Positions 653 to 63,397 of a stretch of DNA of 64,000 nucleotides are shown here, one piece after another; positions within the stretch are counted from its first letter, which is position 1, and each line of letters begins with the position of its first letter. The translations under genes were made by a program, and so were the position numbers. Below the pieces are notes generated by a model. It ran no database searches. It was not told where the DNA came from and was given only the letters and a program-made list of their open reading frames with translations. The stretch covers positions 3,658,001-3,722,000 of the forward strand of contig NZ_CP108464.1 of the NCBI RefSeq assembly GCF_036226405.1, written 5' to 3'. Source of the DNA: Streptomyces sp. NBC_01260 (GTDB taxonomy: Bacteria > Actinomycetota > Actinomycetes > Streptomycetales > Streptomycetaceae).

Positions 653-1789
653 ATGGCCAGTGTCACGTTCGACAAGGCGTCCCGCGTATACCCCGGCTCC
701 ACGAAGCCCGCGGTTGACCAGCTCGAGATCGACATCGAGGACGGCGAGTTCCTCGTCCTCGTCGGTCCCTCCGGTTGTGGCAAGTCGACCTCCCTGCGCA
801 TGCTCGCGGGTCTTGAGGACGTCAACGGCGGCGCGATCCGCATCGGTGACCGCGACGTCACGCACCTGCCGCCGAAGGACCGGGACATCGCGATGGTGTT
901 CCAGAACTACGCGCTCTACCCGCACATGTCCGTCGCGGACAACATGGGCTTCGCGCTGAAGATCGCCGGTATCAACAAGACCGAGATCCGGGCGAAGGTC
1001 GAAGAGGCCGCCAAGATGCTGGACCTCACCGACTACCTCGACCGCAAGCCGAAGGCGCTCTCCGGTGGTCAGCGTCAGCGTGTCGCGATGGGCCGCGCCA
1101 TCGTGCGTGAGCCGCAGGTCTTCCTCATGGACGAGCCGCTGTCGAACCTCGATGCCAAGCTCCGTGTCTCCACCCGTACGCAGATCGCCTCGCTCCAGCG
1201 CCGGCTGGGCATCACGACCGTCTACGTCACCCACGACCAGGTCGAGGCGCTGACCATGGGTGACCGCGTCGCGGTCCTCAAGGACGGTCTGCTCCAGCAG
1301 GTCGACTCGCCGCGCAACATGTACGACAAGCCGGCGAACCTCTTCGTGGCCGGCTTCATCGGCTCCCCGGCGATGAACCTCGTCGAGGTCCCGATCACCG
1401 ACGGTGGCGTGAAGTTCGGCAACAGCGTCGTCCCGGTCTCCCGTGCCGCGCTCACCGCCGCCGCGGACCGCGGCGACACGACCATCACGGTCGGCATCCG
1501 CCCCGAGCACTTCGACATCGTCGAGCACGGCGGCGCCGCCGCGAAGTCCCTCACCAAGGACTCCGCCGACGCCCCGGCCGGTCTGGCCGTCTCGGTCAAC
1601 GTCGTCGAGGAGCTCGGCGCCGACGGCTTCGTCTACGGCTCCGCCAAGGTCGGCGAGCAGGAGAAGGACCTCGTCGTCCGCGTCGGCGGCCGCGCCGTCC
1701 CGGAGAAGGGCACCAAGCTCCACGTCGTGCCGCGCCCGGACGAGCTGCACGTCTTCGCGACCTCGACGGGTGAGCGTCTCACCGACTGA
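653..1789 (+). CDS. msiK: MsiK-type sugar ABC transporter ATPase
   Basis: ATP-hydrolysing subunit that energises several carbohydrate ABC importers (cellobiose, maltose, chitobiose types) whose operons lack their own ATPase. The 378-residue protein has Walker A GPSGCGKST (38-46), the Q-loop Gln near 84, signature LSGGQ (136-140), Walker B VFLMDE (156-161) and the H-loop His near 194. A C-terminal regulatory OB/TOBE region completes the MalK/UgpC fold. The frame is open for 64 codons further upstream, but the ATG at 653 follows a strong GGAGGAG ribosome site at 636-642 and the known family starts there. The gene is monocistronic, with its own promoter and a DasR-like operator. Confidence 0.93.
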   Translation: MASVTFDKASRVYPGSTKPAVDQLEIDIEDGEFLVLVGPSGCGKSTSLRMLAGLEDVNGGAIRIGDRDVTHLPPKDRDIAMVFQNYALYPHMSVADNMGFALKIAGINKTEIRAKVEEAAKMLDLTDYLDRKPKALSGGQRQRVAMGRAIVREPQVFLMDEPLSNLDAKLRVSTRTQIASLQRRLGITTVYVTHDQVEALTMGDRVAVLKDGLLQQVDSPRNMYDKPANLFVAGFIGSPAMNLVEVPITDGGVKFGNSVVPVSRAALTAAADRGDTTITVGIRPEHFDIVEHGGAAAKSLTKDSADAPAGLAVSVNVVEELGADGFVYGSAKVGEQEKDLVVRVGGRAVPEKGTKLHVVPRPDELHVFATSTGERLTD

Positions 1790-7847: not shown

Positions 7848-9152
7848 TCACGGCGTCCGTACTCCCGAGGGGGTCCGCGGTGCCGCTGCCTCCGCGTCCT
7901 GTCCGGCCACCGGTCGCCGAGGCCGCTTTCCGTTCGCGCCCGCCGGAAGGGTCAGCGCGAGGGCGGCGCCCGCGAGCGGGACGGCGGCGAGCACCGCCCA
8001 CCGGACGGGTGCGGGGGCGCCGAGCAGCGCCCCGGTGGCGGCGCTGCCCGCGAGTACGGCCACGCCGGAGACCGATGACAGTGCTCCGGTGGCGAGTCCG
8101 AGGTGCCGGTCGGCGACGAGATCCGGTACGAGGCCGCGGGCGGCCGGCACCAGCAGCATCTGCCCGAGGGTGAGGAGGACGACGAGCGTGGCCGCGGGCA
8201 GCAGTCCGGCGGGCCCGCCGGGGGCCAGGGGCACGGCGGCGAATCCGGTGGCGACGGTGACGAGCCCGGCGACGAGTGCGGTCCGCGGTGCGAGGCGGTG
8301 GGCGGCCCAGCGGGTCACCGGCAGCTGGGCGCAGACGACCAGCAGCGAGGAGAGCGCGAACAGCGGGCCGAGGGCGGCCTGCGAGCCGGTGGCGTGCCGC
8401 ACCTCGGCCGGGAGCGAGAGGTAGAGCTGGTTGTACGCGACGAGGTAGCTGCTGTAGGTGAGGCAGAGCAGCAGGAACGGGCGGTTGCCGAAGACCTCGC
8501 GGGCGGAGCCCCGGGAGCGTTCCGTACGGGCCGCGGGGGCGCGGTGCGGCATCAGCCGGGCGTGTCCGGCGAGGACCGCGACGAAGACGAGGACCCCGGC
8601 GAGGGCGGCGGCCCGGAACCCGCCGCCCAGGAGCAGCAGGGCCGAGCCGAGGAGGGGGCCGAGGAACGCCCCGGCCTGTCCGGCGGCGGAGAACCGTGCG
8701 AGCACCTGGGCGCGCGGGGTGCCGGTCTCCTTCTCGTGGCGGACGGCCTCGCGGGCGGTTTCGGACTCGACGGCGGGTGAGAAGAGCGCGGCGGCGAGTC
8801 CGGTCAGCAGGACGGCGCCGATGACGGTCGCGGTGGATCCGGCGAAGGCGAGCCAGCCGAAACCGGCGATGCGCAGGACGCATCCGGCGAGGACGACGGG
8901 GCGCGGCCCGTACCGGTCGGTGAGTGCGCCGCCGATGACGAAGAGGCCCTGCTGGCTGAAGGTGCGCAGGCCGAGGACGAGGCCGACGAGCCAGCCGGCC
9001 ATGCCGAGGCCGGTGCCGAGGTGGGTGGCGAGGTAGGGCAGGACGGCGTAGAAGCCGATGTTGAACGCGAACTGGGTGGTGGTCAGGAGGCGGAGGTAGC
9101 GGTCCGGGGCCAGGCCCGGGGTGGCCGGCCGCGGGGTCGGGGCGGCGCTCAC
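7848..9152 (-). CDS. MFS transporter, last gene of the metal-box cassette
   Basis: A 434-residue major facilitator with about twelve membrane helices. The motif between helices 2 and 3 is GGALTDRYGPRPVV. The GTG start at 9152 overlaps the permease stop by 4 nt (GTGA), so translation is coupled. The frame is open far upstream, but only as a shadow of the permease gene. Being coupled to a peptide/nickel-type importer, it could export the compound the importer recovers, as CntE does beside CntABCDF in opine-metallophore systems. That role is inference; a drug efflux role is the alternative. Confidence 0.85.
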   Translation of the reverse strand: MSAAPTPRPATPGLAPDRYLRLLTTTQFAFNIGFYAVLPYLATHLGTGLGMAGWLVGLVLGLRTFSQQGLFVIGGALTDRYGPRPVVLAGCVLRIAGFGWLAFAGSTATVIGAVLLTGLAAALFSPAVESETAREAVRHEKETGTPRAQVLARFSAAGQAGAFLGPLLGSALLLLGGGFRAAALAGVLVFVAVLAGHARLMPHRAPAARTERSRGSAREVFGNRPFLLLCLTYSSYLVAYNQLYLSLPAEVRHATGSQAALGPLFALSSLLVVCAQLPVTRWAAHRLAPRTALVAGLVTVATGFAAVPLAPGGPAGLLPAATLVVLLTLGQMLLVPAARGLVPDLVADRHLGLATGALSSVSGVAVLAGSAATGALLGAPAPVRWAVLAAVPLAGAALALTLPAGANGKRPRRPVAGQDAEAAAPRTPSGVRTP

Positions 9153-10891
9153 GCGGCGCCCTTGCGGCCGCGTGCGCCCCGGTGGTGTCCCGCGCCCCGT
9201 ACGGCCGCGGCCGCGAGGACGGCCGTCGCGCCGAGGACGGCGAGGGCGGCGGCGGGGGCGAGTACGGCCCAGGGGGCGCGCTCCGCGTAGGGGAGGTTCT
9301 CGGAGAGCATCCGGCCCCATTCGGGTGACGGGGGCGCGGTGCCGAGGCCGAGGAAGCCGAGGGAGGCGAGGGCCAGCGCGATGGCGGGGACGCGCAGGAC
9401 GGCGTGGCGGACGACGGGGGGCAGTACGCCGGGCAGTACGTGGCGGCGCAGCAGGTGTGCGCGTCCGGCGCCCAGGGCGCGGGCGGCGGCGATGTGCGGG
9501 GCGGCGCGTTCCTGGGCGTACAGGGCGCTGGTGTGTGCGGCGATGGGGGCCCAGGCGACGGCGGTGACGGCGGCCGCGGCGCTCCAGGGGCCGGGTCCGG
9601 CGACACCGGCGACGACGAGGCCGGTGAGGATCGCGGGCAGTGCGTTGGCGGTCTCGGTGAGCGCTCCGGCGCGTACGGCTCCCAGCGCGAGGCCGAGCAG
9701 CAGGGTGGCCGCGGACACGGCGACGGCGGTGAGGACGGTGCGGGCGGCGCCGTGTCCGAGGCGGGCGAGGATGTCGCGGCCGAGGGAGTCGGTGCCGAAG
9801 GGGTGGGCGGTGGACGGTCCGGCGAGGCGGGCGGCGGCGTCGATCTGGAGGGGGTCGCGCAGGAGTCCGGCGACGGTGACGGCGGCGAAGAGCGCGGCCA
9901 GGACGACGGCGGCCGCGGTCAGCAGCCGGCGGGCCGGGAGGGCGGGCGGCAGGAGTGCGGGCAGGGCGCCGTCGCGCAGGGCGGGGCCGAGCAGGGTGCG
10001 GGAGGCGAGCCGGGCGGCCAGTCCGGCGGCGATGCCGAGGAGGAGCAGCAGCAGGACGCACGCCTGGAGGACCGGGAGGTCCTGGGCGAGTGCGGCGGCG
10101 AGCGCGGTGCCGCCGAGGCCGGGGATCGCGTAGAGGGTCTCGACGGCGACGGCTCCGCCGGTGAGTCCGACGACGATGAGGCCGAGCTGGGGCAGCAGGC
10201 CGGGCAGGGTGCGGCGCAGGGCGTGGCGGGCGATGCGGGTTGCGGGCAGTCCGCCGGCGGTGGCGGCGCGCGCCCAGGGTTCGGCGAACGCGGCGGGCAG
10301 TGCGTCGTCCAGCAGCCGGCCGAGCAGCGCGCCGGCGGGGATGCCCATGGCGAGGGCGGGCAGCACCGTCTGTCCGGGGGTGCCCCAGCCGAGCGCGGGG
10401 AGCCAGCCGAGCCGGACGGCGACGACGGCGGCGAGCACGGCGGCGATGAGGAATTCGGGGAAGGCGGCGAGGACGGCCGCGCCGACGCCCGCGCGGGTGG
10501 TGACGATGCGGCGTGCCGCCCCGCGTCGCAGGGTCCCGGCGGCGAGGGCCGCGGCGAGGAGCAGGGCGACGGCGAGGGAGGCGCCCATGAGGGTGAGCGA
10601 GACGCCCAGGGCGGCTATCGCGTCGGGGGCGACGGGCTGCCCGGAGACCCAAGAGGTGCCGAGGTCGCCGTGGAGGAGTCCGCCGAGCCAGCCGCCGAGG
10701 ATGTGGAGGGGGCCGCCGTCGAGGCCGGTGTCGGCGCGGATGGCGTCGAGGGTCTCGGGGGTGGGCGGCCGCTCGGCGTACCGGGCGCGCAGGATCGTGA
10801 GGGCGGGGTCGGTGCGGGTCAGCCGGGGCAGCAGGCCGATGACGGCGAGGACCGCGAGGAGCGCGGCGAGCCGTCCGGCGAGGTACTTCAC
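9149..10891 (-). CDS. Fused DppB-DppC type ABC permease
   Basis: One 580-residue polypeptide joins two permease domains that are usually separate proteins. The N-terminal half resembles DppB/NikB (N-terminal helix LLAVLAVIGLLPRL, periplasmic part with GLDGGPLHILGGWL, HGDLGTSW). The C-terminal half resembles DppC/NikC (HPFGTDSLGRDILARL, GLGTAPPSPEWGRML). The GTG at 10891 lies 4 nt after the stop of the binding-protein gene; an ATG further upstream would overlap that gene by 72 nt. No ATPase gene of the DppD/F type occurs in the operon, so it must borrow one or have lost it. Substrate class: peptide, nickel or metallophore. Confidence 0.85.
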   Translation of the reverse strand: MKYLAGRLAALLAVLAVIGLLPRLTRTDPALTILRARYAERPPTPETLDAIRADTGLDGGPLHILGGWLGGLLHGDLGTSWVSGQPVAPDAIAALGVSLTLMGASLAVALLLAAALAAGTLRRGAARRIVTTRAGVGAAVLAAFPEFLIAAVLAAVVAVRLGWLPALGWGTPGQTVLPALAMGIPAGALLGRLLDDALPAAFAEPWARAATAGGLPATRIARHALRRTLPGLLPQLGLIVVGLTGGAVAVETLYAIPGLGGTALAAALAQDLPVLQACVLLLLLLGIAAGLAARLASRTLLGPALRDGALPALLPPALPARRLLTAAAVVLAALFAAVTVAGLLRDPLQIDAAARLAGPSTAHPFGTDSLGRDILARLGHGAARTVLTAVAVSAATLLLGLALGAVRAGALTETANALPAILTGLVVAGVAGPGPWSAAAAVTAVAWAPIAAHTSALYAQERAAPHIAAARALGAGRAHLLRRHVLPGVLPPVVRHAVLRVPAIALALASLGFLGLGTAPPSPEWGRMLSENLPYAERAPWAVLAPAAALAVLGATAVLAAAAVRGAGHHRGARGRKGAA

Positions 10892-10895
10892 CCGG

Positions 10896-12416
10896 TCATC
10901 CGACGCGGGTGTCTGCGGTGATGAGGGTGCGTTCCATCGGGTCGAGCGCGACGCCGTGGACACGGCTGTCGTCGTACCCCTGGACGAAGCGCTCGTGGAG
11001 CAGCGGCACGAGGGCGTCGGTGCCGAGGATGTCGGCCTCGGCGGTCATCGCGGCGCGGTGGCGGGCGTCGTTTCCGGCGAGTGCGGCGGCCTTGTCCACG
11101 TCGGTGTCGACGCGCTTGTCGCAGAGCTGCGAGATGTTGAAGCTGCCGTCGCAGGTGAAGTCGGACGCGAGGTAGGAGACGGGGTCCGCGGTGTCCAGGA
11201 GGGTGTTGCGGGCCTGGATGAAGGCGTCGTACTTGCCCGCGAGGGCGTCGGCCTCCAGCTGGGCGTAGTCGCGGACGACCTGCTTGACGGTGAAGCCGCG
11301 CTTCTGGAGCTGCTGCTGGACGACGGTGGCGGCCTCGGGGAGTTCGGGCCGGTTGGTGTACGTGGCGAGGACGATCTGCTTCGTCCTCGCGACCTGCGCC
11401 CTGCCGGCGGCCCCCGCCCGGTCGGCCGGGGCCTTGCGGGCGGCGGCAGCCCACGGCACGCCGGGTCCGAGGAGGCCCTGCGCGCTGTCGGCGCGGCCTT
11501 CGTAGACGGCCTTGACGAGGGCCTCGGAGTCGATCGCCTCGCGGGCCGCGGCACGCATCGCGGGGTCGGCGAAGACCCCGTGTTCCGTGTTGAGGGAGAG
11601 GCCGTTGGTACGGGCGGAGGGGAACTCGTGGACGAGCCGGTCGCCGAGGAGGGAGGCCTGCGAGATCGGTACGTACTCGGCGACGTCGACGGCCCCGGTG
11701 CGCAGGGCGTTGGCGCGGGCGGTGCCGTCGGCCACGAAGGTCACGTCGGCACCGGGGGCCTTGGCCTTGCCGCCCCAGTAGTGGTCGTTTCGCTCCAGCG
11801 TGGCGCTGACGGCGCCCTTGACCGCGGCGAGGGTGAAGGGTCCGGTGGCGTGTCCGGCCGGGTTCACCTTGTCCCCCTGGTAGGCGGCGGCGGACAGGAT
11901 CGTGAGGGAGGGGTTGGCGAGGCGCTGGGGCAGCAGCGGGTCGGCCGCGGTGGTGGTGATCCGTACGGTGCCGGCGCCCTGGGCGGTGGCGGTGATGCCG
12001 GTGTCGGACAGGACGCGGGGCTTGGGCGAGGCCTTCTGAGCGGCGTTCAGGGACCGGACGACGGCGGCCGGGTCGACCTTCGTGCCGTCCTGGAAGGACG
12101 CCTTGCGCAGGGTGAAGGTCCACGCCTTCGGGCTCTCGCGCTTCCAGGAGGCGGCGAGTGCGGGCTTCGCGGCGCCGTCGCGGCCGAGGGAGGTGAGGCC
12201 CTCGATGACCGCGAGGCGGCTGAGGTTGACGGCGTCGTCGCCGTAGGGGGACATCGCCTGGGCGGGTGGGAAGGCCATGGCGACCCGGAGGCGTTGCCCG
12301 CCGTCCGACGCGCTTGCGGTGTCGTTCGCGCCGCCGGAGCAGGCGGTGGCGAGCGGGACGAGGAGGGCGGCCGCGGTCAGCGGCAGCGCGGCGCGACGGA
12401 GTCGGGACGGGGGCAT
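10896..12416 (-). CDS. Family-5 substrate-binding lipoprotein (NikA/CntA/DppA type)
   Basis: A 506-residue lipoprotein: signal peptide MPPSRLRRAALPLTAAALL, lipobox LATAC with the lipidated Cys near residue 26, then a SBP_bac_5 fold (AMSPYGDD..., FTLRKASFQDGTKVDPAAVV, ATGPFTL, NDHYWGGKAKAPG). It captures a solute at the outer membrane face and hands it to the permease 4 nt downstream. The ATG is 14 nt after an AT-rich palindrome resembling a Zur/Fur box, which suggests repression by metal. The ligand could be a metal chelate, nickel complex or peptide; sequence alone does not decide. Confidence 0.88.
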   Translation of the reverse strand: MPPSRLRRAALPLTAAALLVPLATACSGGANDTASASDGGQRLRVAMAFPPAQAMSPYGDDAVNLSRLAVIEGLTSLGRDGAAKPALAASWKRESPKAWTFTLRKASFQDGTKVDPAAVVRSLNAAQKASPKPRVLSDTGITATAQGAGTVRITTTAADPLLPQRLANPSLTILSAAAYQGDKVNPAGHATGPFTLAAVKGAVSATLERNDHYWGGKAKAPGADVTFVADGTARANALRTGAVDVAEYVPISQASLLGDRLVHEFPSARTNGLSLNTEHGVFADPAMRAAAREAIDSEALVKAVYEGRADSAQGLLGPGVPWAAAARKAPADRAGAAGRAQVARTKQIVLATYTNRPELPEAATVVQQQLQKRGFTVKQVVRDYAQLEADALAGKYDAFIQARNTLLDTADPVSYLASDFTCDGSFNISQLCDKRVDTDVDKAAALAGNDARHRAAMTAEADILGTDALVPLLHERFVQGYDDSRVHGVALDPMERTLITADTRVG

Positions 12417-12430
12417 GGCAACGACCTTAT

Positions 12431-12447
12431 ATGAAAACGATTGTCAT
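12431..12447 (-). promoter_or_regulatory. Zur/Fur-like metal box at the binding-protein promoter
   Basis: ATGAAAACGATTGTCAT is a near-palindrome (ATGA.AA...TT.TCAT) matching the general TGAAAATnATTTTCA pattern of actinobacterial Zur boxes. It stands in a conspicuously AT-rich patch of about 40 nt in an otherwise very GC-rich region. On the minus strand a TATAAG -10-like hexamer directly follows it, so a bound repressor would cover the promoter. Confidence 0.6.
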
Positions 12448-12470: not shown

Positions 12471-13043
12471 TCAACGGGCGGCGGGCACCGGCAGCTCGAA
12501 GTGGACGACGCTCTGACCGCGTCCGGGCAGAGTGCGTTCGTCGCACACCTCCCGCGCGAGCGACCGCCAGAACGGCTCGGCGCCCGGCACGGCCGGGTCG
12601 GTGTGCAGATAGACCGCCTCGTACCCGCCGGCCCGCGCGACGAAGTCGCAGAGCTCGCGCACCAGCCGCCGCGCCAGCCCGTGCCGGCGGTGCTCCGGCC
12701 GTACGTAGATCCGGCACAGCTGGGCGGTGGTACCGGACGGGAAGCGGTCCGCGACCCACCGCGGATTGGGCGGCGCCTGCGGCCCCCGGTCGCGCACGGC
12801 GCCCGTCGCGACGATCTCGCCGTCGCGCTCGACCACCAGCAGGGTGCAGCGCTCGGGCCGCAGATAGCTGGCCTCGGGGTCGATGATGTCGGCGTGCCAG
12901 CGGGGCACGTAGCCGGACCTCAGGTCGCGGTAGACGGTGTCGAGCATCACGGCCCGCGCGCCGCCGACGTCACGAGGAGTGGCGGTGCGCAGGACGTATC
13001 CGCCGGCATCGGCCCGTATCCCGGCCGTCGTCGTCGTACTCAT
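12471..13043 (-). CDS. GNAT-family N-acetyltransferase
   Basis: A 190-residue acetyltransferase with the GNAT beta-alpha core. The acetyl-CoA loop appears as CRIYVRPEHRRHGLARRL (Q/RxxGxG/A form, about 112-129), preceded by the LLVVERDGEIVATGAV strands. The final strand carries AVYLHTDPAVPGAEPFW. It stands at the head of the cassette, 54 nt upstream of the binding-protein gene, but the metal box lies between them, so it may be a separate transcript. The acceptor substrate is unknown. Confidence 0.82.
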   Translation of the reverse strand: MSTTTTAGIRADAGGYVLRTATPRDVGGARAVMLDTVYRDLRSGYVPRWHADIIDPEASYLRPERCTLLVVERDGEIVATGAVRDRGPQAPPNPRWVADRFPSGTTAQLCRIYVRPEHRRHGLARRLVRELCDFVARAGGYEAVYLHTDPAVPGAEPFWRSLAREVCDERTLPGRGQSVVHFELPVPAAR

Positions 13044-62876: not shown

Positions 62877-63320
62877 TCAGGCCGGGTTCGCGGACTGCTC
62901 GGCCGCCTTCGCCGCGCAGTCCGCGCAGCGGCCGAAGATCGCGAAGTGCTTCATGTCCGTCTCGAACCCGAACGTGCCGCGCAGCTTCTCGGTGAACTCG
63001 GCGACGACGCCGACATCGGCCTCGATGACGTCTCCGCAGTCCCGGCAGACCAGATGGATGTGGTGATGTCGGTCGGCCAGGTGGTACGTCGGGGCTCCGT
63101 GGCCCAGATGGGCGTGACTGACCAGGCCGAGCTCCTCCAGAAGCTCCAGGGTCCGGTAGACGGTCGAGATGTTCACGCCGGACGCGGTCCGGCGCACCTC
63201 GGAGAGGATGTCGTCGGGCGTCGCGTGTTCCAGCGTGTCGACGGCTTCCAGGACAAGCTGCCGCTGCGGCGTCAGCCGGTAGCCGCGCTGCCGAAGATCG
63301 GTCTTCCAGTCGGTGCTCAC
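62877..63320 (-). CDS. nur: Nur, nickel-responsive Fur-family regulator
   Basis: A 147-residue Fur-family repressor; in Streptomyces Nur uses nickel to repress sodF and nickel-uptake genes. Winged helix RGYRLTPQRQLVLEAVDTLE, metal region DRHHHIHLVCRDCGDVIEAD (His-rich Ni site and a structural CxxC), and a C-terminal CADC. GTG 63320 (VSTDWKTDL) matches the family start. The identification as Nur rather than Fur/Zur rests on the HHHIH pattern and recalled gene order. Confidence 0.85.
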   Translation of the reverse strand: MSTDWKTDLRQRGYRLTPQRQLVLEAVDTLEHATPDDILSEVRRTASGVNISTVYRTLELLEELGLVSHAHLGHGAPTYHLADRHHHIHLVCRDCGDVIEADVGVVAEFTEKLRGTFGFETDMKHFAIFGRCADCAAKAAEQSANPA

Positions 63321-63397
63321 CACAGGCCCCAGTGTAGGTCCGGGCGGCCGCCGCACCCAGCGGAATGCCGGGACAACTCTCAGGCACCGCGCACCGG

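Follow-up and report, generated by a model that had tools for sequence, protein, structure and literature searches.

What does a bacterial import cassette without any ATPase gene carry into the cell, under which signal is it expressed, and where does its energy come from? These questions are raised by a locus of Streptomyces sp. NBC_01260 lying in a stretch of 64,000 nucleotides (nt) of contig NZ_CP108464.1 (positions 3,658,001 to 3,722,000), hereafter the window, to whose first letter the positions below refer unless megabases are given. The locus is encoded on the minus strand and comprises, in this order, a GNAT N-acetyltransferase gene, a palindrome, and the genes of a substrate-binding protein (SBP) of the lipoprotein type, a fused permease, and an exporter of the major facilitator superfamily (MFS). 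We consider it rather likely, judging from the sequence, that this cassette is a Zur-controlled transport module for a zinc chelate that serves under zinc starvation and borrows its ATPase in trans.

The SBP (10896-12416, 506 amino acids (aa), NikA-type, family 5) matches PF00496 with 207 bits. The next gene encodes a fused DppB-DppC permease (9149-10891, 580 aa) with two PF00528 (BPD_transp_1) stretches, corresponding to an Opp2B and an Opp2C half, and with conserved coupling segments that include both coupling helices. The permease stop codon overlaps the start codon of the MFS gene (7848-9152, 434 aa; PF07690, 104 bits), whose product resembles MdtH with 124.8 bits, below the cut-off of 469. 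These three genes had been given in the preliminary description of the locus, and they were confirmed at their coordinates on the minus strand. The GNAT gene (12471-13043, minus strand; PF00583, 63.6 bits) is located directly upstream of the palindrome. The whole cassette is embedded between ispD-ispF, assigned by Pfam, and cysS-rlmB, named from the sequence.

A predicted Zur-type operator in the cassette promoter

The palindrome TGACAATCGTTTTCA (12432-12446, minus strand) lies 15 nt upstream of the SBP start. A scan of the whole 9.28 Mb genome revealed it as the sole match without mismatch to the pattern TGAMAAYNRTTKTCA, and it alone reaches 10/10 positions of the core TGANAANNNTTNTCA in the window, where the runner-up scores 8/10. 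From the S. coelicolor Zur motif obtained by ChIP-chip, tGaNNatSatNNtCa (PMC5472717), it deviates by one mismatch. A looser Zur pattern, yielding 115 mostly GC-rich sites compared with 19 for a control, served just for grading the box. As a positive control, the same genome harbors tandem boxes ahead of znuA in a cluster of the order znuA-znuC-znuB-zur (names from the sequence); the Fur-family gene beside znuA-znuC-znuB provides the zur gene.

An orthologue scan with one genome per species delivered 57 loci. Streptomyces orthologues account for 48, and their SBP is 64-98% identical to that of the window (closest: S. laculatispora). In 43 cases, the distance from the box to an ATG or GTG is again 14-15 nt. 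Among the remaining five, two stretches (L073 and L085) come without upstream DNA, L093 passes when the upstream scan is extended, L079 shows a 9/11 box 16 nt from an ATG, and in L092 the scan detected no box. A -10-like hexamer, TAAGGT in the window (12424-12429, minus strand), follows at most 4 nt past the box as TA[AG]G[GC][TC] in 37/48 loci. Box and hexamer columns are conserved in the alignment, and most columns farther upstream are variable.

The box is a predicted operator of Zur type within the cassette promoter, of the kind found in Zur regulons. It would occupy the promoter spacer upstream of TAAGGT, for which a promoter role is assumed, and Zur binding should block the polymerase since the spacer would be filled. 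The transcript would start at the ATG or a few nt away and thus have a short leader or none. Of the two regulators named for this palindrome in the preliminary description, Zur is retained, and iron control by Fur or IdeR is rejected in view of the Zur type of the box. A further Fur-family regulator gene, one of four in the genome and distinct from the znuACB neighbor, is situated at 62877-63356 (minus strand; PF01475, 88.5 bits).

Conservation of the cassette in Streptomyces

The order GNAT-SBP-permease is kept in 45 of the 48 loci; in two others, L073 and L085, the upstream region is lacking, and L092 stops inside the SBP gene. ispF is present upstream wherever the sequence extends that far; L093 contains an additional stretch of roughly 5 kb. 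The four cassette genes are under purifying selection, as determined by comparing the window with four orthologues: NG86 dN/dS values range from 0.17 to 0.48 over the four genes and are highest for the SBP (0.37-0.48).

Profiles of cassette ATPases retrieved no ATPase from the analyzed DNA of the 48 orthologous loci (nothing better than E 0.9; 38/48 reach cysS), in agreement with what had been noted for the window. A putative ATPase remnant between permease and MFS genes, a 27-aa match in L089 (E 0.001, versus 25 gaps), was unconfirmed by the profile search and was discarded.

Complete relatives and the probable loss of the ATPases

A profile of the fused permease detected homologues in 34/394 genomes of the class, including seven of the weaker matches listed (E 1e-70 or worse), which run across one stop codon and could represent neighboring permease genes that are not fused. 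Comparison of 33 homologous stretches from class genomes uncovered complete operons consisting of box, SBP, permease, two ATPases, and MFS (L180-L184, L194), the same arrangement with no MFS gene of the cassette family (L176, L179), and an order with the ATPases first (L186-L192, L202, L203). Boxes ahead of the first gene were scored in 18 related loci, namely 16 with ATPases plus the ATPase-less L178 and L185, with L202 left out: 10/10 positions agree in eight loci, 9/10 in four, 8/10 in three, and at most 7/10 in three.

A midpoint-rooted maximum-likelihood tree of the permeases (31 rows) unites the ATPase-less Streptomyces copies in one clade of 13 rows with support 100/99. The ATPase-less L185, from another family, is placed apart from it, and the branch leading to L178 is long. 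The simplest reading of this tree is that an ancestral pair of ATPase genes was probably lost.

Some of these relatives have conspicuous neighbors. Genes resembling metal P-type ATPases, ArsR, or CDF, as read from the sequence, adjoin L189, L190, L194, and L203. In L186 (902-5506), genes resembling a FecCD-type importer are divergent to the cassette, in which the ATPases come first, and a 10/10 Zur box lies in the gap. L178 (6344-9624) represents a third cassette copy in genome G348 and consists of SBP and fused permease only, without an 8/10 box and without an adjoining ATPase, MFS, or GNAT gene of the cassette kind.

A linked N-acetyltransferase

The GNAT gene belongs to the cassette unit. 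It adjoins the cassette in 46 of the 48 ispF loci, the other two being without upstream DNA. Its occurrence follows the ATPase-less Streptomyces clade, with 12/12 clade-bearing genomes against 7/382 others among the 394 class genomes (Fisher p 2e-18) and 12/12 carriers against 1/28 others within 40 Streptomyces, counts that treat related genomes as independent. It also accompanies a second ATPase-less subclade, for which no ispF or cysS match was seen; there, a box-like site (at least 8/10) precedes the GNAT gene or lies between GNAT and SBP genes in 9/11 loci, and none is present in L175 and L201. No such GNAT was found in G180, the genome with the ATPase-less copy of separate origin (L185), nor in G269 and G385, which have complete operons only. 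A sequence search for structurally solved relatives of the GNAT returned none.

Six of the seven loci of other GNAT carriers were compared (G048 was left out). In L230, L232, and L233, the GNAT gene stands beside genes for an SbnA-like pyridoxal phosphate (PLP) enzyme, a DgcA-like enzyme of the enolase superfamily, an MFS protein related to that of the window, and an importer of Opp type. L232 also shows DUF364 and an ATP-grasp ligase, and Pfam identified a methyltransferase in both L230 and L232; the NCBIfam scores of these neighboring enzymes fall below the curated cut-offs. In L234, from another genus, the GNAT gene comes after an Opp-type ATPase gene, with a 9/10 Zur-like box, genes for zinc-free-looking ribosomal proteins, and a COG0523 gene nearby. 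Further settings comprise other Opp-type ATPases (L235) and a FecCD-like importer plus MFS (L236).

Probable energy supply in trans

The permease has retained both coupling helices yet has no ATPase gene of its own, the combination expected of an importer that shares its ATPase. It is probably energized in trans by an ATPase encoded elsewhere, in line with the earlier suggestion of a shared ATPase. A known case of metal uptake with a borrowed ATPase is S. aureus IsdF, which is energized by FhuC (PMC10147376).

Candidate partners are the Dpp/Opp ATPases at 2.72-2.74 Mb, because they are shared (59-81% identity) with G234, the smallest sampled genome with the cassette. A genome scan allowing up to two mismatches listed no Zur-like site near them. 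Similarity of the coupling helices to those of housekeeping permeases (0.284 vs. 0.247 for the B half, 0.300 vs. 0.296 for the C half) was rejected as a pointer to the ATPase, the effect being small for the B half and absent for the C half.

Proposed function and alternative explanations

We infer the zinc chelate as cargo, repression by Zur in vivo, the ATPase in trans, the GNAT substrate, and the link to a distant operon described below. With sufficient zinc in the cell, Zur would occupy the box in the promoter spacer and prevent transcription; zinc shortage would lead to the joint production of SBP, permease, and MFS. The lipoprotein would then capture a small zinc chelate, presumably an amino-acid-derived zincophore made by the cell itself or by others. 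The fused permease, lacking an ATPase gene because the two of its ancestor are proposed to have been lost, would dock an Opp/Dpp-type ATPase pair encoded elsewhere in the genome and import the chelate, and the MFS protein would export the ligand. Once imported, the ligand is probably a substrate of the linked cytosolic GNAT.

Several observations weigh against this proposal. Regarding control, the relatives L189 and L203 reach at most 7/10 ahead of the first gene, and L175, L201, and L178 are without a box of 8/10 or better. Regarding energy, the search for DppDF-type orphans, proposed as a check in the preliminary description, brought no orphan ATPase to light: of the 31 oligo_HPY matches in the genome, 30 have an SBP gene and one or more detected Opp-type permease genes in their cluster (some clusters with a single permease at the cut-off used), and the last one, at 7475778, is fragmentary and adjoins a weak permease match. 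A search with the nikD model (at least 151 matches) yielded no further Opp-type pair among the matches listed, and none of the oligo_HPY ATPases looks orthologous to the cassette ATPases (43-58% identity for the best matches listed). As to the genes themselves, the permease of L068 is split over two frames, and the MFS gene is missing in five and truncated in two of the 38 loci that reach cysS; therefore, export is not essential. Finally, residue D408 of the window SBP (motif D-T-A-D-P) is a proline in the aligned Gram-positive NikA proteins, and it matches the amine-binding Asp of peptide binders.

This residue leads to the question of the ligand. In fold and profile, the SBP is nearest to Gram-positive NikA (S. 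aureus NikA, B. halodurans 3t66) and not to CntA, and the permease halves find their best matches among nickel permease models. The structure model was built from 48 sequences; a version with 15 close homologues was poor (pLDDT 65.7). The score with the curated nikA model is 174.8 bits and remains below the cut-off of 600. Many family-5 SBPs bind peptides, Dpp/Opp structures are close to this SBP, and the D408 motif is as in peptide binders. The cassette might accordingly import peptides, zinc-binding or plain, with Zur control serving to recover peptide-bound zinc or amino acids and the MFS protein being engaged in unrelated export; we regard this as unlikely.

Decay of the importer after the loss of its ATPases, leaving only the exporter or the GNAT with a role, is considerably less probable. 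It would fit the lack of ATPase genes in the analyzed DNA of all 48 loci, the loss of the MFS gene from some loci, and the L068 permease distributed over two frames. However, the permease match covers at least 500 of 580 residues in 41/48 loci, and five of the other seven are contigs ending within the gene. Moreover, SBP and permease are constrained and are retained where the MFS gene was lost, and the coupling helices are preserved.

The preliminary description had recognized in this layout the traffic of an opine metallophore, as in Cnt systems, which would here involve a staphylopine-like ligand. Cnt clusters indeed contain an Opp-type importer and an MFS exporter (PMC7438024). However, of the proposed likeness to NikA or CntA only the former persists, the CntA model giving 53.6 bits at a cut-off of 800. 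The staphylopine dehydrogenase family PF10100 was detected in 0/199 Streptomyces, this genome included, in a search in which the named control genomes were also silent and G249 was positive. G249 is the only one of the 394 class genomes with a PF10100 match, and it does not possess the cassette. An opine synthase route was consequently rejected, and Cnt-like traffic is very improbable. The locus in G249 (L231, 7377-11642) is itself of opine type, with 482.7 bits for the staphylopine dehydrogenase model (cut-off 675), and is adjoined by an MFS-like gene and two FecCD-type-looking importers; G249 also carries the GNAT-linked SbnA/DgcA gene set.

Streptomyces MsiK serves several sugar transporters that have no ATPase of their own, and a UgpC/MalK-type sugar ABC ATPase, likely MsiK, is encoded just 6 kb from the cassette (653-1789, plus strand; 460 bits for the UgpC subfamily, cut-off 432), but this protein is of MalK type and the complete relatives pair the fused permease with two Opp-type ATPases, so that its energizing the cassette permease is hardly credible.

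A distant Zur-boxed biosynthetic operon

If the cassette takes up a zinc chelate, as we prefer to assume, a source of the ligand has to be considered. A search with the SbnA-like protein found a match in this genome at 7742356-7743399, 76% identical to the homologue in G143. Bit scores were taken on G143 (252 bits) and on a partial frame of G249 (190 bits), and the SbnA equivalog cut-off of 350 is not reached. The gene is part of an operon on one strand at 7.741-7.746 Mb (stretch L245), 4.07 Mb from the cassette, with genes for an ATP-grasp protein (413 aa), DUF364, the SbnA-like protein, and a DgcA-like protein, all with open frames. A Zur box, CGATAATCATTTTCA (9/10), is positioned 117 nt ahead of the first start. 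The idea that a metallophore is made elsewhere in the genome is thereby borne out in kind, with an operon not of the nicotianamine or opine type whose product may be the cargo.

The same operon follows a 9/10 box in G057, G301, G182, G073, G252, and G356, where it continues with genes for an MFS protein, a methyltransferase, an SBP, two permeases, and an ATPase; G143 shows the same gene order, with no 9/10 box seen. In this genome, only a 32-residue MFS match (75% identity, E 4e-11) is left past the DgcA-like gene. Close homologues of the operon's SBP, permease, or ATPase were not found in the stretches spanning all PF00496 matches (best 33-40%). The window MFS is 39% identical to the MFS of the operon, and the window GNAT is 57% identical to the operon-neighboring GNAT in G143.

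A second SbnA-like gene (57-58%), followed by an MFS gene, occurs at 1.096-1.099 Mb (L253, 4706-10577, i.e. 1.093-1.099 Mb), adjoined by genes whose products resemble ArsR repressors and metal P-type ATPases, respectively. Its MFS protein is 46% identical to that of the distant operon and related to the window MFS as well; because of this pair, other exporters for the operon product are possible.

The operon is present in 8/40 sampled Streptomyces (SbnA identity at least 68%; all eight were inspected) and is not associated with the cassette in these 40 genomes, occurring in 3/12 cassette carriers and 5/28 others (Fisher p 0.68). Since the two co-occur no more often than expected, the ligand of most carriers must be foreign or of other origin. 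Two of the three co-carriers, G057 and G301, have the cassette in addition to the operon's own transporters.

In this genome, the window cassette could constitute the transport half for the operon product. One may tentatively go further and imagine a zincophore pathway whose parts are divided between two loci with Zur boxes, a scenario we hold to be possible but rather doubtful. Synthesis would take place at 7.741-7.746 Mb, export and import would have been taken over by the window cassette together with a housekeeping Opp/Dpp ATPase, and the GNAT would acetylate the imported ligand to release zinc. The operon's own exporter would have decayed to the remnant, with its importer genes gone, and the carriers without the synthesis operon (9/12 sampled) would be receivers of a foreign zincophore.

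Significance and comparison with known systems

If the proposed function is true, Streptomyces would possess a zincophore-type uptake route beside ZnuABC and coelibactin, and the cassette would provide an Opp-type example of metal import with a borrowed ATPase. The product of the distant operon could be isolated, and carriers without synthesis genes would make zincophore piracy directly testable. In the literature searched, mostly outside subscription journals, no description of the cassette, its complete relative operon, or the distant biosynthetic operon was found.

Among known systems, the NikABCDE/Opp5-type nickel-chelate importers are closest in SBP fold and profile and provide the best-matching permease models. 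In contrast to them, the cassette has fused permeases, no ATPases, an attached MFS gene, and a Zur box, and its scores stay far below the equivalog cut-offs. With the Cnt/Stp opine zincophore system (PMC7438024), it has an Opp-type importer and an MFS exporter in common, whereas its genome shows no match to the opine dehydrogenase family, its SBP is not CntA, and ATPases are missing from the cassette. In the IsdF/FhuC pair of S. aureus, a metal-uptake permease uses the ATPase of another transporter (PMC10147376), as is proposed here; IsdF/FhuC, however, is a siderophore/heme-type permease with its ATPase, whereas the cassette permease is of Opp type and would require a pair of ATPases. The complete actinobacterial operon (L180-L184, L194) shares homologous SBP, permease, and MFS genes, the same type of box, and the MFS gene in last position, but differs from the cassette in encoding both ATPases and in having no GNAT gene of the cassette kind next to it.

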